Origin: Gemmatimonadota bacterium
GTDB lineage: Bacteria > Gemmatimonadota > Gemmatimonadetes > JACCXV01 > JAHWKZ01
Direction of reading: 5' to 3'
NCBI GenBank assembly: GCA_025931135.1
Contig: JAICNR010000002.1
Coordinates: 1 to 49,510, forward strand
DNA length: 49,510 nt
Shown here: one piece after another, positions 3,621 through 26,408 of the stretch
How positions within the stretch are numbered: the stretch's first letter is position 1
Layout: every line of letters begins with the position of its first letter
Position numbers and translations under genes: made by a program
The notes under the pieces: generated by a model
The model's input: only the letters and a program-made list of their open reading frames with translations
The model's database searches: none
Told to the model about the DNA's origin: nothing

Positions 3621-5554
3621 TCGAAGCTCGTTCGCTCCGCGCTCCCTTGCTCGCCGCCTCCGCCCTGCTCTCGCTCACCGGCCCGGCCACCGCGCAGGGC
3701 GAGCGCGACACCGTCGAGACCGTCCTCGTCCCGCCGATCGTCGTCTCGGTGTCGCGCGTCGAGACCGACGCGTCGAGCGTCGCGAGCGCAGTGACGGTCA
3801 TCAGTCGAGAGCAGATCGAGAGCCGTCAGCTCGGCACCGTGCTCGAGGCGCTCCAGAGCGTGCCCGGAGTCTCCCTGGTCCGGACCGGAGGGCCCGGCGG
3901 CTCGACGTCCGTGTTCCTGCGCGGCGCGAGCTCCGCGCACGCGCTCGTCCTCGTCGACGGCATCGAGATGAACGATCCGTCCGCCCCGACGGGCGGCTAC
4001 GACCTGGCGACGTTGGGCACCGACGGCATCGAGCGGATCGAGGTCCTGCGCGGACCGCAGAGCACGATCCACGGGTCGAGCGCGATGGGCGGGGTCGTGA
4101 ACGTCATCACGCGACGGGGCGAAAGCCCGTCGCGCGTGGAGATACGCGCGGAGGGCGGTGCGCACGAGACCGCGAACGGCTCGCTCGCAGTCCTGGGGGC
4201 GGGTCGCGGATGGTCCTGGGCGGCGACCGCATCGCGGCGCACGACGGACGGCATCAGCGCCGCGCCCGAGGACCTGGGGAACGAGGAGCCCGACGGCAGC
4301 ACGACGACCGCGCTGGAGCTTCGCGTCGAGCGGGATGCCGGGCCCTTCCGCCTGGCGCTCGTCGGGCACATCGACGACACGGACACCGACCTCGACGCGG
4401 CAGGCCCGACCGGTGACGATCCGAACCGGCGGCTGACGGACCGTGAGACAGCGTGGAAAGCGGAAGCCCTCTCCGGCGGCGTGGAGGATCGCTGGCGGTC
4501 GGCGGTCTCGATCTCGTACGCCTCCCACGATCGAGCTAGCCTGGACGACCCCGACCAGGCGCGCGCGGACTCGGAGCGCGGCGCGTTCGACGGGAGCGCC
4601 TGGAAGCTCGCCTGGGTGAACGACGTCGAGGTCTCGAAGACGGTCCGGCTCGTGGGGGGCGCGGAGACCGAGCGCGAGCTTGCAGCGACGACGTTCCGGA
4701 GCGACGGCCCCTTCGGACCGTTCGAAAGCGAGCTGACAGAGCGTACGGCGCGGACGAGCGGCGTCTTCGGCGAGCTGCGCGTCGAACCTGTGGGCTGGTT
4801 CTCGATCGCGGCCGGGGGGCGCCTCGACGAGCACGACCGCTTCGGCGCCATCGCCACGGCCCGGCTCGCGCCCTCCGTTTCGATCGCGAGCACGGGCTCG
4901 CGGCTCCGCGCCACCTGGGGCTCGGGCTTTCGCGCGCCGAGTCTGTTCCAGCTCTTCGATCCGCAGTTCGGCGCACCCGACCTCGAAGCGGAGCGCTCAC
5001 GCGGCTGGGACGCTGGGATCGACCAGACGCTGGGGAGGGATCGAGCGCGGATCTCGGCCACGTGGTTCTCAACCCGGTTCGACGACCTGATCGCCTTTGC
5101 GTCGGAGGGCTACCGCAACGAAGAGGAGGCTTCGACGCGCGGGCTGGAAGTCGACGCCGCCGCGCTTTTCGCGCGGGAAGTGCGGCTGGACGCAGCGTAC
5201 ACCTGGACCCGCGCGGAAGCCGAGTCCGGGCCCGAAGCGGGCCTCGCGCTCATTCGTCGGCCGCGACATCAAGGATCGCTCGACGTCGTCTGGAATCCCA
5301 TCCGCTGGCCGGAGATCGCGCTCGGATCGCGCTGGGTCGGCGAGCGTGAGGATCTCGACTTCTCCGCCTTCCCTGCGGAGCGCGTTCGGCTCGACTCCTA
5401 CGTGGTATGGCGCCTGGCGGTCGCATGGGACGCACTCGAGTCGCTCCGGCTCTTCGGGAGGATCGAGAACATTTTCGACACCGATTACGAAGAAGTCCTC
5501 GACTTCGGGACGATTGGACGTTCGGCGTACATCGGCGCGACGGTCCGGCCGTGA
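3617..5554 (+). CDS. btuB: TonB-dependent outer-membrane cobalamin receptor (BtuB-like)
   Basis: A 645-residue protein. The start ATG 3617 is set by the ATGA overlap with btuD and by AAGGAG five bases upstream. A signal peptide ends near ATAQ (residue 27). A plug domain follows with LEALQSVPGVSL, SVFLRGASS, LVDGIEMNDPS and VLRGPQSTIHGSSAMGGVVNVIT, then a beta-barrel running to the C-terminus. The chain ends in TVRP and not in an aromatic residue. Classification as the B12 receptor follows from the riboswitch-controlled operon; plug sequence alone does not separate cobalamin from siderophore receptors. The receptor would use TonB-ExbBD, which is not encoded in this window. Confidence 0.92.
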   Translation: MIEARSLRAPLLAASALLSLTGPATAQGERDTVETVLVPPIVVSVSRVETDASSVASAVTVISREQIESRQLGTVLEALQSVPGVSLVRTGGPGGSTSVFLRGASSAHALVLVDGIEMNDPSAPTGGYDLATLGTDGIERIEVLRGPQSTIHGSSAMGGVVNVITRRGESPSRVEIRAEGGAHETANGSLAVLGAGRGWSWAATASRRTTDGISAAPEDLGNEEPDGSTTTALELRVERDAGPFRLALVGHIDDTDTDLDAAGPTGDDPNRRLTDRETAWKAEALSGGVEDRWRSAVSISYASHDRASLDDPDQARADSERGAFDGSAWKLAWVNDVEVSKTVRLVGGAETERELAATTFRSDGPFGPFESELTERTARTSGVFGELRVEPVGWFSIAAGGRLDEHDRFGAIATARLAPSVSIASTGSRLRATWGSGFRAPSLFQLFDPQFGAPDLEAERSRGWDAGIDQTLGRDRARISATWFSTRFDDLIAFASEGYRNEEEASTRGLEVDAAALFAREVRLDAAYTWTRAEAESGPEAGLALIRRPRHQGSLDVVWNPIRWPEIALGSRWVGEREDLDFSAFPAERVRLDSYVVWRLAVAWDALESLRLFGRIENIFDTDYEEVLDFGTIGRSAYIGATVRP

Positions 5555-5559
5555 GCGTT

Positions 5560-5565
5560 TACCTT
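5560..5565 (+). promoter_or_regulatory. Possible -10 element (TACCTT), leaderless-type
   Basis: TACCTT lies eight bases before the ATG at 5574, directly after the btuB stop codon. The corresponding -35 region is poor (GCGACG at 5537-5542, 3 of 6 matches). It resembles hexamers placed the same way before miaB and coaX. Confidence 0.35.
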
Positions 5566-5573
5566 GCCGCCCC

Positions 5574-7688
5574 ATGCCGTCGCTACTCTCCGCGCGCGCC
5601 TCGTCGATATGCCTGCTCCTCCTCTTCGCCGGCCCGGCGGCGGCGCAGGAGGAAGTCGACAGCCTGGCTCCAGCGGACAGCCTGGTTCAGGCCGAAGGCC
5701 TGACTGCCGCCGACACGCTCCCGGAGCCGCCGAGAATCCGGGAGGATCCCCGCCTCACCTGGCTCGGTGACACCCTCGCGCTCGTCGACACGCTCGCGTT
5801 CACCGAGCCGATCGAGGTGATCCCGGACAGCCTCGTCGATCCCTACACCGTGGAGCGGCCGGGCGCCCGGCCCGTCTTCGAGCTCGGCGGCGACGCCCTT
5901 CTCGGTCGCGGCGCGTTCAGCCTCCTCGACGTGATCGAGAGCGAGTCGCTTCTACTCGGCATGGATCTCGGGGGTGGTGGTGTCGCGACCTTCCTTTCGT
6001 GGCCGGCGGGCGATCCCTCAGGTGTCCAGATCGTGGTCGACGGCGTGCCCGCCGGCAATCCGCTGGCGGCGATGTGGGATCTGCGCCAGCTCCCGCTGGA
6101 AGGGATCGCCCACGTGGCGTTCTATCCTGGGCCGCAGGTCGCCGCGTGGGGAGGTTCGGGAACGGGAGGAGTGCTCGCGATCACCACTCGTCGAGCGGTG
6201 ACCCGGAGCGCGCGGTCTTTGCTCGCGTTTTCGCTGGGGTCGTTCGACGACGAGACGTTCTCCGGGTACTTCGGCCGCGGGGTGGGACCCGACGGGTCGG
6301 TGTTCGTAGCCGCGAACTTCGATGCTACGGAAGGATTCGAGAACGCGGGCAATTTCACGCGGAACCAGCTGGTCGCGAAAGCGGGTTGGCGGTTCTTCGG
6401 GCGGCATCTCCTGGAAGTGACGCGTCGCGCGGACGACCTCTCGGGCGAGGCGGGCCGCACCTCACTGAGCGGCGAAGAGGACTACGAGGGGAAGTCATGG
6501 CACGCCTTCTACCGCGGCGGAGTGGGACCCGTGGGGTTGAGGGCTCACGGCTGGCGCGAGACTCAGCGGATAGACCAGGAGTTCCAGCTGCGGGGCAAGG
6601 AAGGCTTGGTCGGCGAAGGTGTCCGTAAGGGATGGAAAGCGGACGCCGACCTGCATCTGGCGGGCTTGACCGTCTGGGGGTCGGCCTCCGGCGAGGACCA
6701 GGAGCTCGATTCCGCTCACCCCGCGTTCCTCGTCGACGGCGTGAGCCTGCTCGACCCACCCGAGGACTTCATCGGCACCGCACTCGAGAACCCCCGTACG
6801 CGCACCGAATGGGGCGGCGGGATCGGGTACGGTCACCCGGGGGATCGATGGGGCGCCCACGCGACCGCGCGACACCTGGACTTCGGCGACGGGTTCGAGT
6901 CCGGCACGGCGTGGCAGGGCGAGGTCCTCGCCCGACTCGGGAACGGATTCGAGCTGCGGGCGATGGCGGGGCGGGCGCCACGCCCCCCCGATCCCGTCGG
7001 CGAAGCGATCATCGCCCGCCGGGCGGATGAGGCGCTCGAGATCCATCCCGGCTTGATCGCCGACCCGAACGCGCTCGCCACGTGGACGGGCTGGCGCGGT
7101 TCGGTGGGCTGGTCGGATCGACGCTGGCGCGCGTCGGCGGTGGCGTTCGGTGGGACGGGGGAGAACGCGTTCGCATGGCTCCCGCCGGCGGCGTGGCTCT
7201 CCTTCGATCCGGCCGATCCGGTCGAGTTCCCCATCGGAGGGGAAGGCTTCAACACCTTCGACGTCCTCGACCTCTCGATCTCCGGCGGCGAGGTCGAGCT
7301 ATGGATGCCTTTGCCGTACAGCCTGCGGGGCCGGCTCGCGTACCGGCGTCTCTCGTTGACCGAGGACCGGATCGATGAGCAGCTGCCGTACGTCCCCGAG
7401 GATCAGGCGCTGGCTCAGCTCCGGTTCGCGCGGCGCTTCTTTCCGAGTCGGGACCTGCTGGCCGAATCCCGCCTGACGGGGAGGTATGTGGGAGAGCGAG
7501 GCACGATCGCCGACGGGACGCTGCAATCCTATCTGGCCGTCGACGCGCTCGCCCAGGTAACCGTGATCAACTTCACGATCTTCGTTTCCCTCAAGAACAT
7601 CGGCGACCTCCTCTATCGCGCCGACGAGAACTTCGACCTGCCTGGGGCGGAAGGCTATCTCGGAATAGTCTGGCGCTTCCGCGGGTAG
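5574..7688 (+). CDS. TonB-receptor-like outer-membrane protein
   Basis: A 704-residue secreted protein starting at ATG 5574, with a clear signal peptide ending in GPAAAQ near residue 25. A low-complexity stretch rich in D, S, L and T follows (about 26-90). Next is a plug-like domain with IVVDGVPAGNPL, HVAFYPGPQVAAWGGSGTGGVLAITTRRA (in two adjoining pieces), and then a long beta-rich region ending in GIVWRFRG, typical of a barrel. It follows btuB after 19 bp and may have its own promoter. The plug is more divergent than in btuB and the ligand is unknown. Involvement in B12 or corrinoid uptake is possible from position only. Confidence 0.75.
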   Translation: MPSLLSARASSICLLLLFAGPAAAQEEVDSLAPADSLVQAEGLTAADTLPEPPRIREDPRLTWLGDTLALVDTLAFTEPIEVIPDSLVDPYTVERPGARPVFELGGDALLGRGAFSLLDVIESESLLLGMDLGGGGVATFLSWPAGDPSGVQIVVDGVPAGNPLAAMWDLRQLPLEGIAHVAFYPGPQVAAWGGSGTGGVLAITTRRAVTRSARSLLAFSLGSFDDETFSGYFGRGVGPDGSVFVAANFDATEGFENAGNFTRNQLVAKAGWRFFGRHLLEVTRRADDLSGEAGRTSLSGEEDYEGKSWHAFYRGGVGPVGLRAHGWRETQRIDQEFQLRGKEGLVGEGVRKGWKADADLHLAGLTVWGSASGEDQELDSAHPAFLVDGVSLLDPPEDFIGTALENPRTRTEWGGGIGYGHPGDRWGAHATARHLDFGDGFESGTAWQGEVLARLGNGFELRAMAGRAPRPPDPVGEAIIARRADEALEIHPGLIADPNALATWTGWRGSVGWSDRRWRASAVAFGGTGENAFAWLPPAAWLSFDPADPVEFPIGGEGFNTFDVLDLSISGGEVELWMPLPYSLRGRLAYRRLSLTEDRIDEQLPYVPEDQALAQLRFARRFFPSRDLLAESRLTGRYVGERGTIADGTLQSYLAVDALAQVTVINFTIFVSLKNIGDLLYRADENFDLPGAEGYLGIVWRFRG

Positions 7689-8100: not shown

Positions 8101-8823
8101 ATGTGGCGTACGGCGTACGCCTGGCTCATCGGCGTCGTCTACACCGTTTTCTGGGCTACGCTCGGCATCCTCACCTGGCCTTTCAGCCCGGGCGGCGGGC
8201 TCTACCTCCGGTATGCGCGCATCTGGTCGGGATGGATCCTGAAGAGCCTAGGGATCCCGCTGGCGGTCGCGGGCGGTGAGAGGCTCGAGGCGGGACGCAC
8301 GTACGTCTTCATGTCGAACCATCAGTCCGTGTTCGACATCTTCGCGCTGTTCCGCGGCGTCGATCATCCGCTCCGCATGGTCGCGAAGCGGATCCTCTTC
8401 TGGATTCCGATCCTCGGGTGGTCGATGTGGATGTGCGGTTTCATCCCCATCGACCGGTCGAACCGAGACAGCGCGATCCGGAGCCTCGATCGCGCGGCGC
8501 GGAAGATCCGCTCGGGGATCAGCGTGGTGGTCTTTCCCGAGGGAACCCGCTCCCGGGACGGCACCTTGCACCCGTTCAAGAAGGGCGGGTTCATGCTCGC
8601 GTTGAAGGCCGGTGTCCCGGTCGTCCCCGTGGTCGTCCTAGGGACCGACAGGATCATGGAGAAGGGCTCGCTGCGGGTCGGTCGTGCCGCCGTCGAGGTC
8701 CGGATCGGCCAGCCGATCGAAACGCGCGGTCGCGGGGCGACCGCCCGGGACCGCCTCATGGCCGACGTCCGCCGAGCGATGATCGACCTCGGCGCCACGG
8801 CGTGCGAGGACGCCCCCGCGTGA
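8101..8823 (+). CDS. plsC: 1-acyl-sn-glycerol-3-phosphate acyltransferase
   Basis: A 240-residue membrane-associated acyltransferase that makes phosphatidate from lysophosphatidate. The catalytic motif NHQSVFD (73-79, His74 and Asp79) and the substrate motif FPEGTRSRDG (145-154) are both present. A hydrophobic N-terminal segment (about 5-28) would anchor it to the inner membrane. VPVVPVVVLGT near 180 is the usual fourth block. It is of normal family length. The C-terminus ends just before the carAB leader region, whose putative -10 hexamer begins at 8825. Confidence 0.92.
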   Translation: MWRTAYAWLIGVVYTVFWATLGILTWPFSPGGGLYLRYARIWSGWILKSLGIPLAVAGGERLEAGRTYVFMSNHQSVFDIFALFRGVDHPLRMVAKRILFWIPILGWSMWMCGFIPIDRSNRDSAIRSLDRAARKIRSGISVVVFPEGTRSRDGTLHPFKKGGFMLALKAGVPVVPVVVLGTDRIMEKGSLRVGRAAVEVRIGQPIETRGRGATARDRLMADVRRAMIDLGATACEDAPA

Positions 8824-8824
8824 G

Positions 8825-8830
8825 TATCTT
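8825..8830 (+). promoter_or_regulatory. Possible -10 element of the carAB leader (TATCTT)
   Basis: TATCTT starts two bases after the plsC stop codon and would place the transcription start a few bases ahead of the PyrR-like loop. The -35 region at 17-bp spacing (GTGCGA, 8802-8807) is weak. Confidence 0.4.
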
Positions 8831-8852
8831 CCTGCAAACAGTTCCTTTAAAT

Positions 8853-8870
8853 CGAGTCCCGTGAGGCTCG
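8853..8870 (+). promoter_or_regulatory. PyrR-type RNA binding loop in the carAB leader
   Basis: AGTCCCGTGAGGCT at 8855-8868 fits the published PyrR-binding consensus ARUCCNGNGAGGYU at every position. It is closed by a CGAG/CTCG stem (8853-8856 with 8867-8870). A terminator hairpin follows at 8913-8939, directly before carA. In known systems UMP-bound PyrR stabilises this loop and so permits the terminator, reducing pyrimidine synthesis. PyrR itself is not encoded in this window and I did not trace the antiterminator pairing. Confidence 0.8.
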
Positions 8871-8912
8871 GAAGGACGGCACACGTGAATCACCCGCCAG
8901 GGTTCGGCGACG

Positions 8913-8939
8913 GTCTCCGCTCCGCGGAGACTTTTTTTT
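8913..8939 (+). terminator. Leader terminator directly before carA
   Basis: GTCTCCGC (8913-8920) pairs perfectly with GCGGAGAC (8924-8931) around a TCC loop, followed by eight T (8932-8939). The right arm contains GGAG (8926-8929), the only candidate ribosome site for carA, so the hairpin could block translation as well as end transcription. Confidence 0.9.
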
Positions 8940-10074
8940 GCCCGTGAGCTCCGCGCTTCCCGCCCGCCTCGCGCTCGAGGATGGCTGGACCGCGCTCGGC
9001 AGATCCGTAGGCGCGACCGGCTCGACCAGCGGCGAGTGCGTGTTCAACACCTGCCTGTCCGGCTATCAGGAGGTGCTGACCGATCCCAGCTATGCGGGTC
9101 AGATCGTCGTCATGACGTACCCGCTGATCGGCAACTACGGGATCGTGGACGGCGACGGCGAGTCGCCGCGGCCCCAGGTGGCTGGATACGTGATGCGGGA
9201 GTGCGTGCGAAACCCGTCGAACTGGCAGGCCAGCGGAAGCCTGCCCGACTGGCTGGCGGAGTACGGCGTCGTCGCGATCGAGGGGATCGACACGCGGGAG
9301 CTCACCCTGCATCTGCGGGACCGTGGCGCGCTGCGTGGGGTGGTGACGACCGACGATCTGGACGCGGCGACGGCGGTCGCGAGGGCGCGAGCCGTTCCGC
9401 TCATGGAGGGCCGCGATCTGACCGGTGAGGTGACGGTTCCCGGTCTCGTGGTCGAGGGCGAAGGTGAGCTGACGGTCGCCGCGCTTGATTTCGGCCTCAA
9501 GCAGAACATCGTCCGCGAGCTGGCCGGCGCGGGCTGCCGCGTGGTGCGACTGCCGGCGGACGCCTCGGCCGACGACGTGCTCGAGCTCGCGCCGGACGGT
9601 CTCTTCTGCTCGAACGGCCCGGGCGATCCGGCGGCGGCCGGCGCGGCGATCGAGACCCTGCGTTCCCTGTCCACGCGGGCGCCGGAGCTGCCGACGTTCG
9701 GAATCTGCCTGGGACACCAGCTCCTGGCGCTGGCGCATGGGGGCGAGACGTACAAGCTCAAGTTCGGGCACCACGGGGGGAATCACCCCGTTCAGGATCT
9801 GCGCACCGGTCACATCGACATCACGAGTCACAACCACGGGTTCGCTGTGCGCGAGCAGAAGTCGGCCGGCCGGCGCATGGTGGCGGGCGCCCCCGCCCTC
9901 GAGATCACGCACTTGAACCTGTACGACGGGACGGTCGAGGGATTCCGGCATGTCGAGCGACCGCTCTTCGCCGTCCAATATCACCCCGAGGCAGCTCCCG
10001 GTCCGCACGACGCGCGCCACCACTTCGACGACTTCGTGTCTGCGATGCGCGGGCACAGGGGCTCCCGCGGGTGA
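8938..10074 (+). CDS. carA: Carbamoyl-phosphate synthase small (glutaminase) subunit
   Basis: A 378-residue subunit that hydrolyses glutamine and passes ammonia to CarB for carbamoyl phosphate, the precursor of pyrimidines and arginine. The N-terminal CPSase domain starts with LALEDG (11-16) and [10 protein letters not shown]. The class I glutaminase domain has the nucleophile in GICLGHQ (Cys257) and the HPE triad residues (His349, Glu351). The start is uncertain: TTG 8938 sits eight bases after GGAG (8926-8929), while GTG 8944 is in frame but 14 bases away. Either start directly abuts the leader terminator, which points to pyrimidine-responsive control. It is followed by carB after 19 bp. 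Confidence 0.95.
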
Positions 10075-14145: not shown

Positions 14146-14586
14146 ATGAGTGCTTCGTCAGCGCGTCACGTATTGATTACTCTCGCGATCTTCGCCTGTG
14201 GCGGTGGAGACGGCGGGGGCAGTCCGATCGATCCCGTCTCTCTGCAAGTCGGGGGGAGCTGGGCCGAGACCTCGGAAGTCGTCTTCGATGTGTGCGACCT
14301 CATGGACAGGCTGGGCCCGCTTACGAAAACCTCTCAGCTTTCCCAATTTGGGGTTCAGCTTAGGCTGATCCGTGATGGGGAGGAATTGGGGAGCGGGTCG
14401 CTGACTCCGACCACCGGGGAATTCGTCCTGTCTGGAACCTACAGCATGGAAGGCCTGACGATCTCCTTCACACAGCGCGGCCGCTTCTCATCCCCGACCC
14501 ATTACACCGCCGAGTCCGACATTACGATCAGTGGGGGGTTTGTCACCTGCGGGGCCCGGACGACCGATTCTGGCGTCCGCCTCTGA
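14146..14586 (+). CDS. Putative lipoprotein of unknown function, in insertion
   Basis: A 146-residue protein. Its N-terminus is a short basic/hydrophobic segment ending in LAIFAC (Cys18), followed by a GGGDGGG linker, as in many exported lipoproteins. The mature part seems rich in beta strands: VQLRLIRDGEELGSG, FVLSGTYSMEGLTISFTQRG and YTAESDITISGG suggest a small lipocalin-like or META-like barrel, though I cannot name the family. Two cysteines (in DVCDLMD and VTCGART) might form a disulfide. It is the only plausible cargo of the tRNA-Arg insertion. Function is unknown. Confidence 0.65.
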   Translation: MSASSARHVLITLAIFACGGGDGGGSPIDPVSLQVGGSWAETSEVVFDVCDLMDRLGPLTKTSQLSQFGVQLRLIRDGEELGSGSLTPTTGEFVLSGTYSMEGLTISFTQRGRFSSPTHYTAESDITISGGFVTCGARTTDSGVRL

Positions 14587-14784
14587 TTGAGGCCTTTCTC
14601 GAGTCGCTGCGGAATCGGTTCCTGTAGTCAATCTTCCGCCATCGCTTCTGGGTATCAGGCGACTTGTCAACTTCCCGTACCCATGCGGAAGGTTGTAGGT
14701 CGGTGCGCTGTCCCTGTCTTGGGTCCGGTCCGAGCAGTTCACCCCGCCGCTTCTCCCTGGTGCCAAAACCGGTGACAAACCGTG

Positions 14785-14849
14785 CTGGCGGTGGCCGTTG
14801 ACGGCTGGCGCAAATATGATCAGACTGGCGCTGGTGTCGTCAACTGGCG
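14785..14849 (+). repeat. Four CTGGCG motifs at about 20-bp spacing
   Basis: CTGGCG begins at 14785, 14805, 14825 and 14844, on the same strand and roughly two helical turns apart. The last copy ends 11 bp before the right tRNA repeat. Regular spacing beside an attachment-like site suggests binding sites for a recombinase, directionality factor or repressor; no such protein is encoded nearby. Confidence 0.5.
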
Positions 14850-14860
14850 CCAGTATTGGT

Positions 14861-14909
14861 CCTCCGGAGCTGTAGGTCAGAGGTTCGAATCCTCTTGGGC
14901 GCACCACCT
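14861..14909 (+). repeat. Right direct repeat (attR-like, tRNA-Arg 3' end)
   Basis: It is identical over 49 bp to 13767-13815. It lacks the 5' half of the tRNA, so it is not a functional gene. It ends exactly one base before the stop codon of the minus-strand lipoprotein gene. Confidence 0.9.
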
Positions 14910-15374
14910 CTACGGCGCGCGAGTGCCTTCCGTCCGCAGCTGACCCACGGAGTCGCCCGCCTCCATCTGCCAGGTCGCCGTCACATCCCCCACGAGCCGG
15001 TCACCTTCCAGGTGGAAGACGGTGTGGGTGGTGACCATCGTTCCGGGCATCCGCACGCTTTCGAAGGGCTCCGAATCGGTGATGATGTTGTCGCCATCGA
15101 CTACGGCCGTGGCCGAAACCGGGTCGCGGCCGGGGAAGTTCAAGGTCCAGCTCGTCTCGCCGATTACCACCTGATACTCGTTGACGAACGTGTCCGCCGG
15201 ATCCGTCGACGTCGTGCGCATGTTCCAGGTACCGGCCAGATCGGCGAGGGAGATCTCCTCTACCGCGGTCGTGTCGGCGGCTTCGTCGGCGACCTCTTCC
15301 GTCGCCTCCTCTGCGCATCCCAGGAGGAGCAGGGCGGCGAACAGGGGAATGAGGCGTTTCATGGTCCAGGGCAT
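14910..15374 (-). CDS. Putative lipoprotein of unknown function
   Basis: A 154-residue protein on the minus strand. ATG 15374 is preferred because GGAGAG lies five bases upstream; ATG 15362 (MKRLIP) is an alternative. The signal segment ends in LLGC (Cys20), followed by an acidic Glu/Ala/Asp linker. From residue 48 the chain reads LADLAGTWNMRTTST, VIGETSWTLNFPGRDP and HTVFHLEGDRLVGDVTATW, a pattern of short strands typical of small lipocalin-like lipoproteins that begin with GTW. Its stop codon touches the right tRNA repeat, so the insertion left it intact. Ligand and role are unknown. Confidence 0.75.
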   Translation of the reverse strand: MPWTMKRLIPLFAALLLLGCAEEATEEVADEAADTTAVEEISLADLAGTWNMRTTSTDPADTFVNEYQVVIGETSWTLNFPGRDPVSATAVVDGDNIITDSEPFESVRMPGTMVTTHTVFHLEGDRLVGDVTATWQMEAGDSVGQLRTEGTRAP

Positions 15375-15419
15375 GGGGACTCTCCGGGAGTGGGAATTCT
15401 CGTGTTCGGGCGATTCTTT

Positions 15420-15446
15420 ACTATACGCGGAGTGACGCGATGTCAA
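15420..15446 (-). promoter_or_regulatory. Putative promoter of the minus-strand lipoprotein gene
   Basis: On the minus strand TTGACA (15441-15446) precedes TATAGT (15420-15425) with a 15-bp spacer, shorter than usual. TAGTAA two bases downstream gives 17 bp. Confidence 0.55.
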
Positions 15447-15498
15447 CGGGAATCGAATAGGATCTGCGATCATGGTTCGACCGTTCCTGGAAAGTCCC

Positions 15499-16527
15499 TC
15501 AGCGAGCGTGGAAGAGCGTGGTGAAATAGTAGAACCCCGCGGCGACCAGCGCCGAGGCCGGAATCGTCAGGATCCAGGCCCAGACGATCCTCCTCGCCAC
15601 CCCCCATTTGACCGCCGACGCGCCGCGCGTCGAGCCCACTCCGACGATCGCGCCGGTGATCGTATGCGTGGTCGAGACGGGAATCCCGAAGTGGGTGGCG
15701 AGAAACAGCGTGAAGGCTCCGCCGGTCTCCGCGCAGAACCCGCCGTACGGCTTGAGATCGGTGATCCGCATCCCCATCGTGCGGACGATTCGCCAGCCTC
15801 CGAGCGCGGTGCCGATCGCCATCGCTATGTGGGCGCCCAGGATGATCCAAAGCGTGCGGGGATCCGTGAGGCTGAGCTCGGTATCGGGGCTGAGGGAGCC
15901 GTGGGCGACCAGCAGCGCGACGATGATCCCCATCGTCTTCTGCGCGTCGTTCCCGCCGTGGCCCAGCGAATAGAGCGCGGCCGAGACGAACTGGCCCTTG
16001 CGGAAGAAGCCGTCCACAGAAGTCGGGCTCCAGCGCCGGAAGATCCACGCCACCGCGATCATGAGAATCACTGCGGCCACGAGGCCGATCATCGGCGCCA
16101 GCGGGATGAACCCCACGGTCAGCAGGATCTTGTCCCAGTTCAGGATGTCGAACCCGGCATGCGCCACGCCCGCGCCGGCGAAACCGCCGATCAACGCGTG
16201 GGACGAGCTGGTGGGAAGGCCCCACCACCACGTCAGGAGGTCCCACACGATCGCTCCGATCAGGCCCGCCAGCACGACCCAGACGTAGATCGTGTCCTCG
16301 GCCTGGACGTCGACGATCTTCGACACGGTATCGGCGACGCGCGGAGCGAAGATGAACATCGCGACGAAGTTGAAGAAGGCTGCCCAGAGCACGGCATACC
16401 GCGGACTGAGGACGCGCGTCGAAACGATCGTCGCGATGGAATTCGCGGCGTCGTGAAACCCGTTGATGACGTCGAAGGCGAACGCCACCGCGACGGTGAG
16501 GATGACGATGATCCAGACGAGATCCAC
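15499..16527 (-). CDS. pit: PiT-family inorganic phosphate transporter
   Basis: A 342-residue inner-membrane permease. The two PiT signature repeats are clear: GFHDAANSIAT near residues 23-33 and GHGGNDAQKTMG near 194-205. Each lies in one of the two inverted halves, and about ten membrane helices can be drawn. PIT proteins import phosphate, often as a neutral metal-phosphate complex, driven by the ion gradient. It follows a DUF47 gene after 21 bp, a common pairing in which the DUF47 protein affects transporter function. Confidence 0.93.
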   Translation of the reverse strand: MDLVWIIVILTVAVAFAFDVINGFHDAANSIATIVSTRVLSPRYAVLWAAFFNFVAMFIFAPRVADTVSKIVDVQAEDTIYVWVVLAGLIGAIVWDLLTWWWGLPTSSSHALIGGFAGAGVAHAGFDILNWDKILLTVGFIPLAPMIGLVAAVILMIAVAWIFRRWSPTSVDGFFRKGQFVSAALYSLGHGGNDAQKTMGIIVALLVAHGSLSPDTELSLTDPRTLWIILGAHIAMAIGTALGGWRIVRTMGMRITDLKPYGGFCAETGGAFTLFLATHFGIPVSTTHTITGAIVGVGSTRGASAVKWGVARRIVWAWILTIPASALVAAGFYYFTTLFHAR

Positions 16528-16548
16528 TTGGATGCGCCCGGCTTCCCG

Positions 16549-17175
16549 TCAGGCGTTCTCGAGGACGATTCCCTCGATGATGTTCGCGACGTCCTCACAC
16601 CGATCCGTCGCGATCTCGAGGTTCTCGTAGAGTTCCTTCCACTTGATGATCGCCACGGGGTCCTTCTCTTCGTCGAACAAGCGCGCCACCGCTCGGCGCA
16701 GCAGCTCGTCGCCCGCGTTCTCTAGCCGGTTCACCTCGATGCAGGCGGCGCTGATCGTCTCCGCATGCTTCATGTCCCGCAGTCCCTTGACCGCGCCTTC
16801 GATGTGGAGGGTGGCGTCGAGTAGGACGGCGGCCAAGTCTCTCGCATCCTGCGTCATTCCGGTGACGTTGTAGAGAACGCACAGGTCGCTGACTGTCTCC
16901 ACGTAGTCCATGATGTCGTCCATGTGCGAGATCAGCATGTGGATCTGGTCTCGATCGATCGGCGTGATGAACGTCTTGTGGAGTGCCTCGACGCAGTCGT
17001 GCGTGATCGAGTCGGCCTCGTGCTCGATGTCCTTGATCCGCGCGGCGCGGGCCACGAAGTCGGTCCCGGCGATCGTCAGCTCCACCAGCTCGCGACATCC
17101 TCGGACCGTCGCCGCCGCGTGGCGCTCGAAGTAATCGAAGAAATTCGTTTCGCGGGGCATGAAACGCTTGAGCAT
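16549..17175 (-). CDS. DUF47 family protein (PhoU-like), partner of PiT
   Basis: A 208-residue all-helical protein. ATG 17175 is chosen because AGGAGG lies four bases upstream; an ATG 18 bases further up has no such site. The start MLKRFMPRETNFFDYFERHA and the internal KDIEHEADSITHDCVEALHKTFITPIDRDQIH region (quoted in part; acidic and histidine metal-site pattern) mark the DUF47 family, which resembles PhoU. Members usually sit next to PiT transporters, as here, and are thought to modulate them. A weak promoter, TAGACA-N17-TAAGCT, is visible upstream on the same strand. Confidence 0.9.
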   Translation of the reverse strand: MLKRFMPRETNFFDYFERHAAATVRGCRELVELTIAGTDFVARAARIKDIEHEADSITHDCVEALHKTFITPIDRDQIHMLISHMDDIMDYVETVSDLCVLYNVTGMTQDARDLAAVLLDATLHIEGAVKGLRDMKHAETISAACIEVNRLENAGDELLRRAVARLFDEEKDPVAIIKWKELYENLEIATDRCEDVANIIEGIVLENA

Positions 17176-17360
17176 CGATCCTCCTGCGAGCATCGGTGGC
17201 CATTGACCCGGAGTACTGCTTGCGATGGCCGCAGCAGCTTAACGATCGGGGATTCCCTTGTCTAGCTTGATCGACCGATCCCGTAACGATTCGCCGTGTC
17301 AGATCCGGAACACCCCTGACCCCCGCTCGACTCCTAGACTGCGGTGGGGGAGGAAAGCGC

Positions 17361-20081: not shown

Positions 20082-20111
20082 TTGACATGCCGTTTCCGGA
20101 CATGCTACGGT
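20082..20111 (+). promoter_or_regulatory. Promoter of the collagen-like gene cluster
   Basis: A perfect TTGACA (20082-20087) is followed after 18 bp by TACGGT (20106-20111), preceded by TGC as in extended -10 promoters. It lies about 50 bp before the lipoprotein start. Confidence 0.65.
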
Positions 20112-20162
20112 GGCGTCAGTTCGCTACCACGGTCACGCACATTCATGTCCGAAAGGATGAAC

Positions 20163-20588
20163 ATGAGACACTTCGGCGTTTCGGCGGGCATTCTTCTTGC
20201 CATGGCCATGCTCCTGTGCTCGTGCAGCGAGAAGCATCCGGTCGGTCCCGGCGGCCAGCCGCAGATCTTCTTCAACTGGCTCCCCGCGCTGCTCGCGGAT
20301 CAGTCGTCCGCGCAGCCGTGCCACGAGCTGATGCAATATCTGGACACCGCCGGAGTTGTGGATCCGTGGGCGAACAAGAGCAGGCAGGAAATGCAGGCGA
20401 CCCTGGATCGTCTCGGAAACTGCGCGTCGCAATACCGGCAGAGCGCGCCGGGCTACGAAGCGGGAGACGAGCCGATCCTGGATGCAATCGTGGTCTACGT
20501 ACAGGAGGCCCGGTCCTTCCTCGCGGGCGGCACCGGCTTCCATCCGAGTTCCCAGAGCACACCCACTCTTCAGCAGGACAGAGGTTGA
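20163..20588 (+). CDS. Small lipoprotein of unknown function, first gene of cluster
   Basis: A 141-residue protein. ATG 20163 is preferred because GAAAGG lies six bases upstream; ATG 20145 and 20157 are in frame. The signal peptide ends in LLCSC (lipid Cys21). The mature part has two further cysteines (in QPCHELM and GNCASQY) that could pair, and reads as mainly helical. I do not recognise a family. It is followed by the collagen-like gene after one base, so the two products are probably made together. It could be a membrane tether or chaperone for the collagen-like protein; this is inference from position. Confidence 0.72.
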
Positions 20589-20589
20589 A

Positions 20590-21954
20590 ATGACACGACA
20601 CCGTTCGATCCTGACGAGGGCGGTGACGGCGCTGTTCCTCGCGGTCGCGCCCGCGAGCTTGTTCGCGCAGGAGCCCGCTCCCGGTGGAAACGGCAGGACG
20701 CTCACCCCCGCGACCGGGGAATCCATCGAGGCCTGCTATCACGTCCCCGGCGGGGTCATCTACCGGATCCGCGAGCCCGGCTTGCCGAGCGCGTGCGTTC
20801 CGGGATCGGATCACATCTACTTCACGTGGGGCTCAGGGGGCGATGGAGTCGGGCCGACCGGTCCTCCCGGTCCGAGCGGTCCGTCCGGACCCCCCGGCCC
20901 CTCCACAGGCGTGCCCGGTCCGGCCGGCCCCCAAGGCGAACCGGGTCCGGTCGGTGCCGAGGGCGACCCGGGCCCGAGCGGTCCTGCCGGCCCGTCCGGC
21001 CCGAGTGGTCCTCAGGGTCCGGAGGGTGATCCCGGTCCGCAAGGTCCCGCCGGAGATGCGGGACCGGAGGGGGCCCAGGGTCCCGCCGGCCCGAGCGGAC
21101 CGCAGGGTCCGCAGGGGGACGAAGGTCCGCAGGGGGATCAGGGTCCGGCGGGTCCCAGTGGGCCGCAAGGTCCTCAGGGCGAACAGGGTCCGACAGGGGA
21201 CGAGGGTCCTCAGGGCGATCCGGGCCCCCAGGGCCTCGCCGGTCCCAGCGGTCCGCAGGGTCCGCAGGGTGATGAGGGTCCACAAGGGGATCAGGGTCCG
21301 GCGGGTCCCAGCGGGCCGCAAGGTCCCCAGGGCGACGAGGGTCCGCAGGGCGATCAGGGTCCGGCGGGTCCGAGTGGCCCCCAGGGTCTGCAGGGGGATC
21401 AGGGTCCGGCGGGTCCGAGCGGTCCGCAGGGTCCGCAAGGTGACCAGGGGCCGCAGGGCGTCGCCGGTGCGACCGGTGCGACGGGTCCGCAGGGTCCGCA
21501 GGGTCCGCAAGGGGACGAGGGCGCCCAGGGGATCCCGGGTGTCGCGGGTCCCACCGGACCGCAAGGACCGATCGGACCGTCCGGTCCTCAGGGACCGACG
21601 GGCGCCACGGGTGCGACAGGCGCGACCGGACCGTCCGGTCCGGCGGGTCCGCTCGGAACATCCGGTGTCGTGACCAGCTCGTCGAGTCCCGAAGTGGGCG
21701 GACCTGCGGCGACGACGATCACGGACTCGGTGACCTGCCCGCTCGGCGAAGTCGCGCTGAGCGGCGGCTGGGAGCTGACGGTTCCCGACGTCAACGACTA
21801 CGCCAAGGTCTTCATCCAGTCGTCGAAGCCGGCGTCTTCCGGAATGGTCGGCTCGCTTACGGGGGACCAGTGGCAGGTCGTCTTGAGTGTCACCGCCAGC
21901 CTCGGAGGCGGAGACACCGTCACACTCAAGGCGGTCGCGCTCTGCAGCAACTAA
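20590..21954 (+). CDS. Secreted collagen-like protein with acidic Gly-X-Y domain
   Basis: A 454-residue protein starting at ATG 20590. A signal peptide ends in SLFAQ (residue 27). Residues 40-84 form a small domain with two cysteines ([13 protein letters not shown] and SACVPG) seen before bacterial collagen repeats. Residues 88-359 hold about 90 Gly-X-Y triplets with a single one-residue break (GPST-GVP). This domain has Asp and Glu but no Lys, Arg or His, and contains 21-residue tandem units ([13 protein letters not shown] plus GDEGPQGDQ). The C-terminal 95 residues form a beta-rich domain with two cysteines, perhaps for trimerisation. It is likely a cell-surface filament. Prolyl hydroxylation is not expected. 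Confidence 0.9.
20851..21666 (+). repeat. Gly-X-Y coding repeat with 63-bp tandem units
   Basis: Nine-base triplet codes of the type GGN-CCN-CAG recur throughout. Near-identical 63-bp units (seven triplets) are clearest between about 21085 and 21440. Recombination between units could change the domain length in frame. Confidence 0.85.
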
Positions 21955-21987
21955 CCCGCAGGTAACACGGGCGGGGATGGACGAGGA

Positions 21988-22018
21988 GGGGCAGGGAGCC
22001 ACCCTGCCCCTTCTCCTT
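21988..22018 (+). terminator. Hairpin after the collagen-like gene
   Basis: GGGGCAGGG (21988-21996) pairs perfectly with CCCTGCCCC (22002-22010). The tail TTCTCCTT is T-rich but interrupted, so termination may be partial and allow some read-through into the TPR glycosyltransferase gene, which starts 12 bases later. Confidence 0.65.
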
Positions 22019-22029
22019 GAGGAGGCGGA

Positions 22030-24489
22030 ATGCGCAAGGCACGAGCGATGGTGGATACCATGGCTTCGTCGCGGGGACCGGAGCCCCCGACCGGCCCGTC
22101 CTGGAAGCGCGCGCTGCCGTTCGTCCTCCTCGCGCTGACCGTCGCGGTCACGTACTCGAACACGCTCGACAACGGTTTCCACCTGGACGATTTCTACCGC
22201 ATCCGGGACAACCCCGAGATACGCAGAGTCGCCCCGATGATGCGCCACTTCACGGATCCCGGGACGATCTCCGGCAGCCAGGGCGTCTCGGAGTCCGCGC
22301 TCAGCCAGATCGGCCAGTATCGACCGCTGCTGCCCCTGAGTCTCTCGCTCAACTACGCGGCCGGCGGCCTCGAGCTCCCCGGCTATCATCTCGTGAACAT
22401 CGCGCTCCACCTGGCGGGCTGCGTCCTGGTCTTCCTCCTGGCGGCGCGGATCCTCGCGCTCGCCCGCCCACACAACCTCTCAGGGACGCGCGAGGCCCGC
22501 TGGACGGCGCTCTTCGTCGCGCTCGTCTACGCGGTCCATCCCCTCTCGGGGTATCCGGTCAACTACATCCTGGCGCGAGACCTCCTTTTCATGCAGGCCT
22601 TCGTTCTCGGTGCCCTGCTGACATACGCCCGCGGGCGCGAGAGGCTGTCCGTTTGGCGCTGGATCGCCGCGCTCGCGCTGTTCGAGCTCGCGCTGATGTC
22701 GAAGGTCACCGCCGCGATCATGCCGTTGCTGATCCTCGCCTGGGAATGGACGATCGCGAGAGCGCCGATCCTGTCCCGTCGGCCGTGGATGCGAGCGGCA
22801 CCCTTCGCCGCGGTCGCCGCCCTGCACCTGGGGTTCGTCCGAATGCTCCTCGACTTCGGAGATCTGGCGCGGGTCGAGTCCGGTGCCGTGTGGTCCTGGA
22901 CCTACGCGCTGACGCAGGCCGACGTCCACGTCACCGAGTACCTGAAGAACTTCTTCTGGCCGCTCGCGATCCGGATGGCGCCCTACGTTGCGGAGCGGCT
23001 CAGCCTGGCGGACCCGCGCGTTCTCGTCGGGCTCGCAGTCATCGTCGCGTCGCTCGCGCTCGCGGTCCGATTGCGCCGCACCGCGCCGGTGGCGGCGTTC
23101 GCGGTCCTGGGGTACTGGATCCTGATGCTGCCGGAGTCCTCGATCCTCCCGATCAGCCATCTCGCAGTCCACTATCGCGCTCTCCCCTCGAGCTGGCTCC
23201 TGTACCTGGCACTGGCGCTCCTTGTCGTCCGCGTCGCGAGGCCACGCGTGGCGATTGCGGTCGGTGGCTGTGCCACGGTGATCCTGGCGATGGCTTCTTA
23301 CACGCTGAATCGCACCTATCGCGACGAAGAGAGCCTCTGGGCCCACAGTGTGAGGCACGGCGGCGAAGCGCTCGCTCACATGAACTACGCGATGAGCATC
23401 GAGGATCGGGCGGACCCTCGGGTGCAGGCCCATCTGGAGCGGGCCGTCGAGATGAGTCCCAACTACGTCCTCGCTCACGTGAACCTGGGGCTTCTGTCCA
23501 TCGACCGAGGAGAGCCGGAGGAGGGCCTGGCCCGACTGCGTTGGGTTACTGGAATGGCTCCTGGCTGGCCTGAGGCGTGGTACTGGCTGTCGGTGGCGGA
23601 AGATCGTCTGGGTCTCCTGGACGATGCCGTGCGGAGCGCCGAGCGCGCTCGGGCGCTCGACCCCGAGAACCTCGAGTACGCGTACCGCTCCGCTCTCGCT
23701 CGTTCCCGGGCCGTCGACTTCGACGACGCCCTCGTGGCTGCCCAGGTGGTCCTGGAAGCCGACCCGGAGCATTCCGGCGCGAGGTTCGTCGAGGCCTATG
23801 CCCTGCAGATGACGGGCGCGACGGAAGCTTCCACGCGCGCGTATGGACGCTATCTCGCCGCACGCCCCGACGACCTGGAGGCGCGATTCGACCTCGCGTA
23901 CGCGTGGATCACGCTCGACCGTTGCGTCGATGCCTTGCCGCACCTGCGGGCCATCCTGGAGCGGCGGCCGGCAGACGCACTCGCCTCTCAGTATCAGGAC
24001 ATGTGCCTTGCGGAGATGCAGGGAGGCTCGCGCGCCGCAGCGATCGCGCTCGAACGGCAGTACGAGGCCGCGTTCGCGGCTTACCGCGCGGGCGACTACC
24101 GACGGTCGCTCGAGTTCCTGCATCTGGTGGAGGCGCTTCGTCCAGGCTATGGGGAAGCACTGTACCTGAAGGGATTCGACCTCCAGATGCTGGGTCGGCT
24201 CGAGGAAGCGGTCGCGGCCTATGAGGACTACCTCGCGGCGCATCCGGGCGAGGCCCAGGTTCACTTCAATGCGGGCCACGCGCTGGCGGCGCTCGACCGC
24301 TGCCCGGAAGCCCGAATGCACCTCGAACGCACGCTCGAGCTCGCGCCCGAGAACACCGAGGCTCGCGAGATCCTGTCGGGCTGCGGGGATGATGACGCGG
24401 GGTCGCGGACCGCGACCGTTTCGGCGGATCCGCGATCAGCACCGCGCCCGGGATCGAGACAGGCAACCATCAACGAGGAAACGACATGA
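22030..24489 (+). CDS. TMTC-like polytopic TPR protein, GT-C glycosyltransferase candidate
   Basis: An 819-residue inner-membrane protein starting at ATG 22030, behind AGGAGG. Residues 28-450 hold about ten membrane helices. The first periplasmic loop begins TLDNGFHLDDFYRI, with the Asp-Asp pair (53-54) expected for GT-C enzymes that use lipid-linked sugars. Residues 460-790 hold about nine TPR units. This order, GT-C membrane part then TPRs, matches the eukaryotic TMTC O-mannosyltransferases and their bacterial relatives. The last 40 residues are polar. Its neighbour is the collagen-like gene, so that protein is a candidate acceptor. Its stop overlaps the next gene (ATGA). Enzyme activity is inferred, not shown. 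Confidence 0.8.
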   Translation: MRKARAMVDTMASSRGPEPPTGPSWKRALPFVLLALTVAVTYSNTLDNGFHLDDFYRIRDNPEIRRVAPMMRHFTDPGTISGSQGVSESALSQIGQYRPLLPLSLSLNYAAGGLELPGYHLVNIALHLAGCVLVFLLAARILALARPHNLSGTREARWTALFVALVYAVHPLSGYPVNYILARDLLFMQAFVLGALLTYARGRERLSVWRWIAALALFELALMSKVTAAIMPLLILAWEWTIARAPILSRRPWMRAAPFAAVAALHLGFVRMLLDFGDLARVESGAVWSWTYALTQADVHVTEYLKNFFWPLAIRMAPYVAERLSLADPRVLVGLAVIVASLALAVRLRRTAPVAAFAVLGYWILMLPESSILPISHLAVHYRALPSSWLLYLALALLVVRVARPRVAIAVGGCATVILAMASYTLNRTYRDEESLWAHSVRHGGEALAHMNYAMSIEDRADPRVQAHLERAVEMSPNYVLAHVNLGLLSIDRGEPEEGLARLRWVTGMAPGWPEAWYWLSVAEDRLGLLDDAVRSAERARALDPENLEYAYRSALARSRAVDFDDALVAAQVVLEADPEHSGARFVEAYALQMTGATEASTRAYGRYLAARPDDLEARFDLAYAWITLDRCVDALPHLRAILERRPADALASQYQDMCLAEMQGGSRAAAIALERQYEAAFAAYRAGDYRRSLEFLHLVEALRPGYGEALYLKGFDLQMLGRLEEAVAAYEDYLAAHPGEAQVHFNAGHALAALDRCPEARMHLERTLELAPENTEAREILSGCGDDDAGSRTATVSADPRSAPRPGSRQATINEETT

Positions 24490-25154
24490 CGAAATCGTGG
24501 ACGGTGATGTTCCTCATCGCTCTGGCTGCGCCTTTGACAGCCCAGGAGCGGACAACGGGAATGGTGGTCGCGGATACGGTGGAATCGGAGGCCGACCCTC
24601 GATGGCTGGCCACTGTATACGCTGGGACCTTCGGAATCGCGGATGACGAGCTGAGCGGGGTCGGAATGACGAGTGACGCCGGAACTCTCTTCGGGGCGCG
24701 GCTCGGCTACCGGTTCAAGCCGAGCTGGGCGATCGAGGCGAGCTACGGATACGCGCCGCTCGATGCAACGTCCGAGGGCTTCGGCAGCGTGGACGGCGCG
24801 CTGCATCTCTACCACGCGGACCTGGTCTTCCTCGCACCCGCTGCCGGGCGCGCGCAGGTGGCGTTGTCCGCGGGCGCCGGGGGGATGCGGTACGCCTACG
24901 ACGAGTTCGAACGGCGGGGGGTGCTGCTCCAGGGCGAGTCCTGGGCGCATGAGCTCATCGTGTCGCTGGGAGCGGGGCTCGTCGTGAACCTGGGGACCCA
25001 TGTCGGCCTCCGGGTCGAGGCCCGGGATCACGTCCAGTTCTGCAGTGCCGAGGAGGAGCCGATCGACGAAACGACCGACTTCTCACACTGTCCTCTGGAC
25101 GACGCGGTGCTTCACAATCCCGAGCTGTCGGGAGGGCTCCTCCTGCGCTTCTAG
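24486..25154 (+). CDS. Outer-membrane beta-barrel protein
   Basis: A 222-residue protein with a signal peptide ending in PLTAQ (residue 20). The mature part has alternating beta strands such as LATVYAGTFGIAD, FGARLGYRFKPSWAIEASYGYAP and LIVSLGAGLVVNLGTHVGLRVEARDHV (given in part), and the chain ends in GLLLRF, a typical barrel end with terminal Phe. An eight-strand OmpW/OmpA-like barrel fits the size. One loop near residue 180-198 holds two cysteines (FCSAEEE and SHCPLDD), probably a surface disulfide. It overlaps the TMTC-like gene by ATGA and is the last gene before a strong terminator, so it ends this operon. Confidence 0.85.
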   Translation: MTKSWTVMFLIALAAPLTAQERTTGMVVADTVESEADPRWLATVYAGTFGIADDELSGVGMTSDAGTLFGARLGYRFKPSWAIEASYGYAPLDATSEGFGSVDGALHLYHADLVFLAPAAGRAQVALSAGAGGMRYAYDEFERRGVLLQGESWAHELIVSLGAGLVVNLGTHVGLRVEARDHVQFCSAEEEPIDETTDFSHCPLDDAVLHNPELSGGLLLRF

Positions 25155-25184
25155 CGTTCCGCGTCTTCCCGGCAGGATCCTGCG

Positions 25185-25233
25185 AACGGGGTCCCGGTAC
25201 GCCGTCTGGGCGGTGCCGGGATCCCGTTTTTTT
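25185..25233 (+). terminator. Intrinsic terminator closing the collagen/TMTC cluster
   Basis: ACGGGGTCCCGG (25186-25197) pairs with CCGGGATCCCGT (25216-25227) with one G-U pair, followed by a T run to 25233. The loop contains a small CCGTC/GGGCGG helix. Confidence 0.88.
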
Positions 25234-25424
25234 CGTGGCCAAATTGCCCCGCCCCCGACAACGGATGAGGCCGCGAGGTCCCCAGAATGGGGAACGGGCG
25301 ACCGGCAATGGGTAAGCCGCTTCTCTTCCCGGGGAACGAGCCCTCCGAACGCGATCGTCCTTGACATTCGACCCGAACCATGGTTCCGTGCGCGGGCACG
25401 CCGTCTGCGACCTTCACGGGTGCC

Positions 25425-26408
25425 ATGCGAACCAGGCCGAACCCCCCTCGCTTCCTCCCGATCCTCGCGGCGACGGCCGCGTGTGTCCTGATCGGCTGCT
25501 CGGACGCCGGCTCCGGTGGTCCAGCGGGACTCGAGGCCATGTCGCAGGACGGTGGGGCGGTCGTCGCCCTCCAGGGCCGGGTGGTGGATCACGATACGCG
25601 CGCCGCCCTGGCCCGTGTCCGGGTGACCGGGGGCGGGGCCACGACCTGGACGGACCAAGCGGGTCGCTTCAGCCTGACCGTAGCCCCCGAAGCCGAGCTG
25701 AGCTTTTCCGGCACCGGGTACTACGACCGGGTCACGGCCGTCGAGGGCTTCGCCGCGACGTATTCGCTCGTTCCCCGCTCCTTCGACATGACGGCGTTCA
25801 ACGACGTCGCGCGGGACCATTCGGCAGGCACGCTGCGTTGGACCTCGGCGCCGGACATCTACGTCGACGTGCGGGGGCACTCCTTCGCGCCGGGTCAGAA
25901 CGTCGCCGCCGCGTGGGTCGATCAGGCGGCTGCCCTGGCTCCCGGATTCGTCACCAGTTGGACCGGTGGCACGCTCTCGGTGGGGTCGGTCACCGTGGGG
26001 TCCGCCCCGCCCCCCGCGGGAACTCCGGGCGTGATCGTGATCGCGTTCGACGAGGACCCCGCGCATTATCCGAACGCCACCGCAGCGGGCTCCGCGATCG
26101 CCTCGTGGGACACTCAGGGGGTGATTCGCAGCGCAACCGTGCGGCTCCGCTTCTCCCACCTGACCGGTGAGGCCGCGACGTTCTCGCGCCAGGCGGTGAT
26201 CGGGCACGAGCTGGGCCATGCGCTCGGGCTAGCCCACATGGACGGCGGCGTCCCGAGCATGATGGCCGCGATCATCCGCACGCCCGAGCTGACGGTCTTC
26301 GACCGTGCGGCCGGGCGGCTGCTGTACGACCGTCGACCCGGGAACCGGGCGGACGACCGCGAGTCGGGCGCCGGGCTTCGGAGCATCACGACCCTCGCCA
26401 GTCGCTGA
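25425..26408 (+). CDS. Metzincin-type zinc metalloprotease lipoprotein
   Basis: A 327-residue exported protein. ATG 25425 is chosen because it opens the signal peptide ending in VLIGC (lipid Cys25). Residues 48-115 resemble a carboxypeptidase regulatory-like beta-sandwich (LQGRVVDHDTRAAL, TDQAGRFSLTV). Residues 140-300 form a protease domain with the full zinc motif HELGHALGLAH (261-271: His261, Glu262, His265, Gly268, His271) and a Met-turn candidate at SMM (278-280). These fit matrixin/astacin-like metzincins. A TTGACA at 25361 hints at its own promoter, though no good -10 follows. It lies 270 bp beyond the collagen/TMTC cluster; collagen as substrate is only a guess. Confidence 0.87.
   Translation: MRTRPNPPRFLPILAATAACVLIGCSDAGSGGPAGLEAMSQDGGAVVALQGRVVDHDTRAALARVRVTGGGATTWTDQAGRFSLTVAPEAELSFSGTGYYDRVTAVEGFAATYSLVPRSFDMTAFNDVARDHSAGTLRWTSAPDIYVDVRGHSFAPGQNVAAAWVDQAAALAPGFVTSWTGGTLSVGSVTVGSAPPPAGTPGVIVIAFDEDPAHYPNATAAGSAIASWDTQGVIRSATVRLRFSHLTGEAATFSRQAVIGHELGHALGLAHMDGGVPSMMAAIIRTPELTVFDRAAGRLLYDRRPGNRADDRESGAGLRSITTLASR

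Follow-up and report, generated by a model that had tools for sequence, protein, structure and literature searches.

A clade of GT-C/TPR proteins paired with collagen genes suggests an undescribed family of enzymes glycosylating bacterial collagens

Results

A membrane protein is encoded next to a collagen gene in distant bacterial groups

Here we describe a bacterial gene pair in which a collagen-like protein is encoded next to a membrane protein that joins a GT-C glycosyltransferase domain to a long arm of tetratricopeptide repeats (TPRs). We examined the pair in a 49,510-nucleotide stretch of DNA from a Gemmatimonadota bacterium (contig JAICNR010000002.1; the whole stretch is referred to as the window). 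There, four genes follow one another on the forward strand and encode a small lipoprotein, the collagen-like protein, the GT-C/TPR protein and a β-barrel of the outer membrane. A preliminary description of the locus had recognized these four genes, and they are real and co-directional. Because relatives of the putative enzyme in distant bacterial groups also adjoin a collagen gene, the sequences suggest that they form an undescribed family of enzymes that glycosylate bacterial collagens. The source of the window is a high-GC metagenome-assembled genome (MAG; G000) of 2.43 Mb in 249 contigs, which is 81% complete with 4.87% contamination.

Linkage to collagen is confined to a single clade

We gathered homologues by GT-C similarity alone, so that the presence of a collagen gene could not bias their choice. 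Beyond the genus, the top two matches share 44% identity and come from MAGs named delta proteobacterium and Gammaproteobacteria; in each, a collagen gene lies immediately upstream. Profile searches added genomes G416, G436 and G406, and in the distant Gemmatimonadota genomes G093, G280 and G255 the gene likewise lies beside a collagen gene. In total, the pairing recurs in nine further genomes of several lineages, beyond the gene order shared by the two genomes of the genus.

A tree of 60 homologues places every one of the ten collagen-linked proteins in a single clade of 12 (UFboot/SH-aLRT support 95/91), which splits into two subclades (100/100 and 100/99). The two remaining members of the clade lie on contigs that end near the GT-C gene. 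The remaining 48 homologues include no collagen-linked protein, and 33 of them have adequate flanks; linkage is thus found in 10/10 determinable clade members and in 0/33 others (Fisher p=5e-10). Judging from record titles and genome grouping, with most of the genomes being MAGs, members of the clade occur in Gemmatimonadota, Gammaproteobacteria and a third group. A clade profile run over 109 genomes (the order of G397) recovered one new member, G776 (E=1e-140). Found after the linkage rule had been stated, G776 too is immediately preceded by a collagen gene, which lies on the same strand. In the window's class, scores are below 1e-158 for clade members and 4e-62 for the next homologue, a gap that sharply bounds the family there. 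Moreover, the listed matches to PF01391 in G000, G001, G093 and G436 are confined to one gene, namely the linked collagen. The proposal that the two proteins belong together, made when only the window had been read, is therefore borne out in every determinable clade member, including G776.

The frequency of both gene types could by itself bring them together, since GT-C/TPR homologues occur in 86/395 and collagen genes in 109/395 Gemmatimonadota genomes. Yet the product of the chance probabilities is 5e-23, or 5e-12 when any 10 of 61 homologues are allowed, every link falls within one clade, and the prediction for G776 held. We rejected chance neighborhood on these grounds and regard it as extremely improbable.

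Some loci depart from the simple pair. In G280 (locus L071), a group II intron maturase gene at 2010-2666 and other intervening genes may explain a 4-kb gap between the collagen and GT-C genes. In G405 (L116), the GT-C/TPR gene (8262-9670) is divided between two frames and only a truncated collagen remnant (5448-5675) is left upstream; both partners seem to be decaying together, or the breaks are assembly errors. We excluded G405 from the linkage counts because its GT-C gene is broken.

The membrane half is predicted to adopt a GT-C fold

AlphaFold2 predicts the full-length GT-C/TPR protein (22030..24489, 819 amino acids) with a predicted local distance difference test score (pLDDT) of 89.3 and a predicted template modeling score (pTM) of 0.80. 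Its initial 6-10 residues are uncertain because the start in the sister genome lies further inside. Pfam identifies the TPRs, which form a superhelix of about 11 helical pairs in the model (23416..24381), and finds no domain in the membrane half. Because TPR matches swamped the fold search with the full-length protein, we modeled the GT-C domain alone (22099..23319). The resulting model (pLDDT 92.3, pTM 0.93), on which we counted about 11 transmembrane helices, has a GT-C fold. Indeed, its first 12 matches in the PDB by Foldseek are all GT-C enzymes (best E 3.6e-3), led by ArnT, oligosaccharyltransferase (OST), Pmt4, EmbA/B and PglB. The domain combines the features of the GT-C_A superfamily, that is the GT-C fold, an acidic motif in the first outer loop, a lysine in external loop 3 (EL3) and an arginine in EL5.

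The acidic motif (M1) is the pair Asp53-Asp54 (22186..22191) singled out in the preliminary description. It is kept among the 48 aligned homologues, with the first aspartate present in 47/48 and the second position usually aspartate as well (46/48). The EL3 lysine of motif M4, Lys225 (22702..22704), occurs in 47/48 homologues and corresponds to a lipid-phosphate ligand in Pmt and TMTC enzymes (PMC6801728, PMC7801869). The EL5 arginine of motif M7, Arg383 (23176..23178), is present in 11/11 aligned clade members. Asp53, Arg98-Pro99, His120, Lys225 and Arg383 are retained in both subclades, and all of these except His120 are positions that bind the sugar lipid or the acceptor in relatives. Other residues distinguish the collagen-linked clade: Asp76 (22255..22257), within a clade signature F-T/S-D-x-x-T, is found in 11/11 members and 3/37 homologues outside; Asn178 (22561..22563) in 11/11 and 1/37; and Phe74 is invariant in the clade and uncommon elsewhere in the alignment.

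Two acidic residues proposed to be metal ligands in TMTC enzymes, the glutamate of M4 (KE(T/Q)xxT) and the aspartate of M5 (DW) (PMC7801869), have a different fate. In the window's subclade the M4 glutamate is replaced by V/T/Q, with the lysine kept, and the M5 aspartate is absent, so that activity is not assured. Together with the large TPR superhelix, this loss would suit a catalytically weak or dead GT-C protein that, bound to the membrane, chaperones the collagen chains or helps to secrete them through its TPRs and prevents premature trimerization. The loci L060, L074, G776 and the window, which are linked strictly to collagen and not to a sugar pathway, would suit it too. By contrast, the retention of the five conserved sites in both subclades, the acidic residues that subclade B keeps at M5, and the other glycosyltransferase genes close to most loci argue against such a chaperone, an explanation that we consider unlikely. 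Such glycosyltransferase genes lie near 6/9 loci outside the genus (GT2 in L061, L071, L072, L117 and L118; a PMT_2-type GT-C in L115), and a GT2 gene is also close to the clade member of L073, which sits at the end of its contig.

An enzyme of this fold might instead act on a lipid or polysaccharide, or on another surface protein, with the collagen merely co-regulated. In line with this idea, ArnT, a lipid A glycosyltransferase, is the best structural match, and a sulfatase/PA14 gene lies two genes downstream in L060. However, enzymes of the ArnT type are not known to have TPR arms, and the collagen is the constant neighbor across lineages while the remaining neighborhood varies. This makes an ArnT-like modifier, to our judgment, quite unlikely.

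Linked collagens carry serine and threonine at the Y position

The collagen-like protein of the window (20590..21954, 454 amino acids; Pfam Collagen E=1.8e-40) has what bacterial collagens typically have: a long unbroken Gly-X-Y stretch, a signal peptide, here read by eye, and flanking non-collagen domains. The repeat includes 85 uninterrupted triplets. Its Gly-X-Y region (residues 88-361; 20851..21672) contains 24 Asp/Glu and no Lys/Arg, in keeping with its earlier designation as acidic. Serine and threonine occupy 26% of the counted Y positions. The C-terminal non-collagen domain (21673..21951) is a candidate trimerization or attachment domain; it is 70% identical in the sister genome over 77 residues, and a search of 59 other relatives gave no match. 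Among the linked collagens the flanking domains differ, and several share an N-terminal Cys-containing module.

Across the linked collagens, serine plus threonine fill the Y position in 24-74% of triplets, versus mostly 0-20% (median ~7%) in 20 unlinked Gemmatimonadota matches (Mann-Whitney p=9e-5; p=7e-4 after dropping six poor-looking collagen matches). Bacterial collagens as a whole often have threonine at Y (31.6%; PMC8968730), and the enrichment thus holds relative to this Gemmatimonadota sample.

Organization of the locus in the genus

Among named relatives, the Gemmatimonadetes MAG TY_HY_2_bin.52 is the nearest, with 71% identity in the GT-C/TPR protein. In the sister genome G001, the locus is spread over two contigs by an assembly break inside the collagen gene: C108 carries the lipoprotein gene directly followed by the start of the collagen gene, and C209 carries the end of the collagen gene, then the GT-C/TPR gene, then the barrel gene. 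Identities to the window are 79% for the lipoprotein, 70% for the collagen C-terminal domain, 68-73% for the GT-C/TPR protein and 72% for the barrel. The gene order is therefore the same, and by sequence comparison the four-gene layout is conserved in the genus. Of the co-occurrence of all four families put forward earlier as a check, the collagen/GT-C pair extends across lineages and the full homologous set is found only within the genus.

The lipoprotein (20163..20588, 141 amino acids) was assigned from its open reading frame and an LLCSC lipobox-like motif seen by eye; it belongs to no known family, with neither Pfam nor NCBIfam giving a match. The barrel (24486..25154, 222 amino acids; Pfam OMP_b-brl E=1.1e-10) overlaps the stop codon of the GT-C gene. 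In G093 (L072), a PF13568 barrel and a 140-amino-acid putative lipoprotein (14191-15683) immediately precede the collagen gene, giving the order barrel, lipoprotein, collagen, GT-C. These are the window's four kinds of gene in a rearranged order, and the two lipoproteins show no significant similarity. Trypsin-like putative lipoproteins are encoded near the GT-C genes of G416 (L115, 7139-8014) and G406 (L118, 5142-5984) and are possibly a processing protease of the system.

The transcription signals proposed for the locus fared unevenly. The strong terminator after the barrel gene was corroborated: the hairpin at 25185..25228, which a T run follows, has a folding energy of -44.5 kcal/mol (z=-3.9), and 0/200 shuffled sequences were as stable. 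A single promoter framing the four genes found no support, as a scan for sigma-70-type sites detected none, although this phylum may use promoters of another kind. A hairpin with a 14-bp stem between the collagen and GT-C genes (21983..22015; -32.3 kcal/mol, z -2.8) forms a conserved island in a spacer that has otherwise diverged in G001. It lacks a proper U tract, which makes the suggested leakiness plausible and the element attenuator-like. The sequence CTCCTTGAGGAG, at about 22013-22024, forms a perfect inverted repeat across the likely GT-C ribosome-binding site and the 3' arm of this hairpin; the repeat, which is not conserved in G001, possibly serves translational control.

Beyond the terminator, the product of 25419-26408 is a secreted protein that contains a carboxypeptidase-regulatory-like domain and weakly matches matrixin-type metalloproteases. 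Elsewhere in the window, 15499-17193 on the reverse strand holds a gene pair for a PiT phosphate transporter (PF01384) and a DUF47/PhoU_div protein. A search of plasmid and viral contigs for relatives returned a single weak partial plasmid match and no viral relatives.

Discussion

The pairing with collagen throughout one clade, the GT-C fold with its conserved Asp53, Arg98-Pro99, His120, Lys225 and Arg383, and the Ser/Thr enrichment at Y lead us to favor, with moderate confidence, a collagen-dedicated module in which the GT-C/TPR enzyme O-glycosylates its neighboring collagen. From these features, all drawn from sequence and structure prediction, we infer the catalysis, the donor, the acceptor, the site of action and the roles of the lipoprotein and barrel as follows. 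Chains of the collagen-like protein would be exported, still unfolded, to the periplasm. The GT-C domain in the inner membrane would transfer sugar from a polyprenyl-phosphate (or -diphosphate) donor to serine and threonine, mainly at the Y position, and the periplasmic TPR superhelix would grip the long repetitive substrate, enabling many transfers. The trimer would fold afterwards and reach the outer membrane, probably assisted in this genus by the lipoprotein and the barrel.

Several observations weigh against this proposal. The collagen and GT-C genes are convergent in G255 and G406, and in G280 the maturase gene and others lie between them. L060, L074, G776 and the window genes scanned have no glycosyltransferase neighbor. 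The window's subclade has lost both TMTC metal-ligand residues. On the substrate side, the unlinked comparison set was drawn from the strongest Gemmatimonadota collagen matches, threonine at Y is frequent in bacterial collagens at large, and in Ser/Thr content at Y the collagen of the window ranks second from the bottom of the linked set. More broadly, and with somewhat greater reserve, we lean toward a coherent, undescribed GT-C/TPR family, spread over several bacterial lineages, that O-glycosylates collagens at Y-position serine and threonine. It would offer a way to stabilize or decorate a triple helix free of proline hydroxylation, with the TPR arm guiding the repeat.

A GT-C/TPR clade that tracks collagen genes opens the glycosylation of collagens in Gram-negative bacteria to genetic study. 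It hints at a reason for the repeated occurrence of TPR arms on protein glycosyltransferases whose substrates are long or repetitive, provides a tangible model in bacteria for enzymes of the TMTC type, the catalysis of which has been inferred largely from sequence and modeling (PMC7801869), and supplies a natural enzyme-substrate pair for producing glycosylated recombinant collagen. We found no report of a GT-C/TPR-collagen pair in the open-access literature, and a review describes glycosylation as an exception among bacterial collagens, with spore formers as its examples (PMC8968730).

In architecture the protein resembles TMTC1-4 (CAZy GT105), which share the N-terminal GT-C domain, the Asp-Asp of the first loop, a YRP-type motif, the EL3 lysine, the EL5 arginine, the long TPR arm and 11 transmembrane helices. 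TMTC1-4, however, are eukaryotic enzymes of the endoplasmic reticulum that act on cadherins, whereas the window protein is bacterial. TMTC_DUF1736 was detected neither in the window protein (E<=1) nor in ten further clade members (E<=0.05), and is present in 9/60 of the wider homologues. Of the TMTC-like plan first described, the succession of GT-C and TPRs and the Asp-Asp of the first outer loop stand. We rejected membership in the TMTC family because DUF1736 was undetected and the M4 glutamate and M5 aspartate are missing in the window's subclade.

With ArnT, Pmt and OST-PglB of GT-C_A, the protein shares the membrane fold (Foldseek probability 1.00 for ArnT 5f15, Pmt4 9i5k and PglB 6gxc), but only ~10-15% identity over the structural alignments. 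To our knowledge, these enzymes neither carry a TPR arm nor pair with a collagen. BclA of Bacillus anthracis is likewise a glycosylated bacterial collagen-like protein (PMC8968730); it is, however, an exosporium protein of a Firmicute spore, and the literature we found links no GT-C/TPR enzyme to it.

The nearest parallel in gene arrangement, and a functional precedent for our proposal, is SgtA of C. difficile. The gene for this TPR-containing glycosyltransferase directly precedes bclA3, which encodes a collagen-like exosporium glycoprotein, and SgtA adds N-acetylglucosamine to threonines of the BclA3 collagen repeat (PMC7157674). In both systems, a glycosyltransferase with C-terminal TPRs is encoded next to a collagen gene. 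The gene order differs, in that sgtA precedes bclA3 whereas in the GT-C clade the collagen gene usually comes first. The hosts differ as well: SgtA belongs to a Gram-positive spore former, and the clade described here to Gemmatimonadota, Gammaproteobacteria and a third group. GT-A enzymes such as SgtA use a nucleotide-sugar donor. The catalytic domain of SgtA is of this type and is not homologous to the multi-pass membrane GT-C domain of the window protein. Because the two catalytic folds are unrelated, the arrangement of a TPR-glycosyltransferase beside its collagen would have arisen twice.

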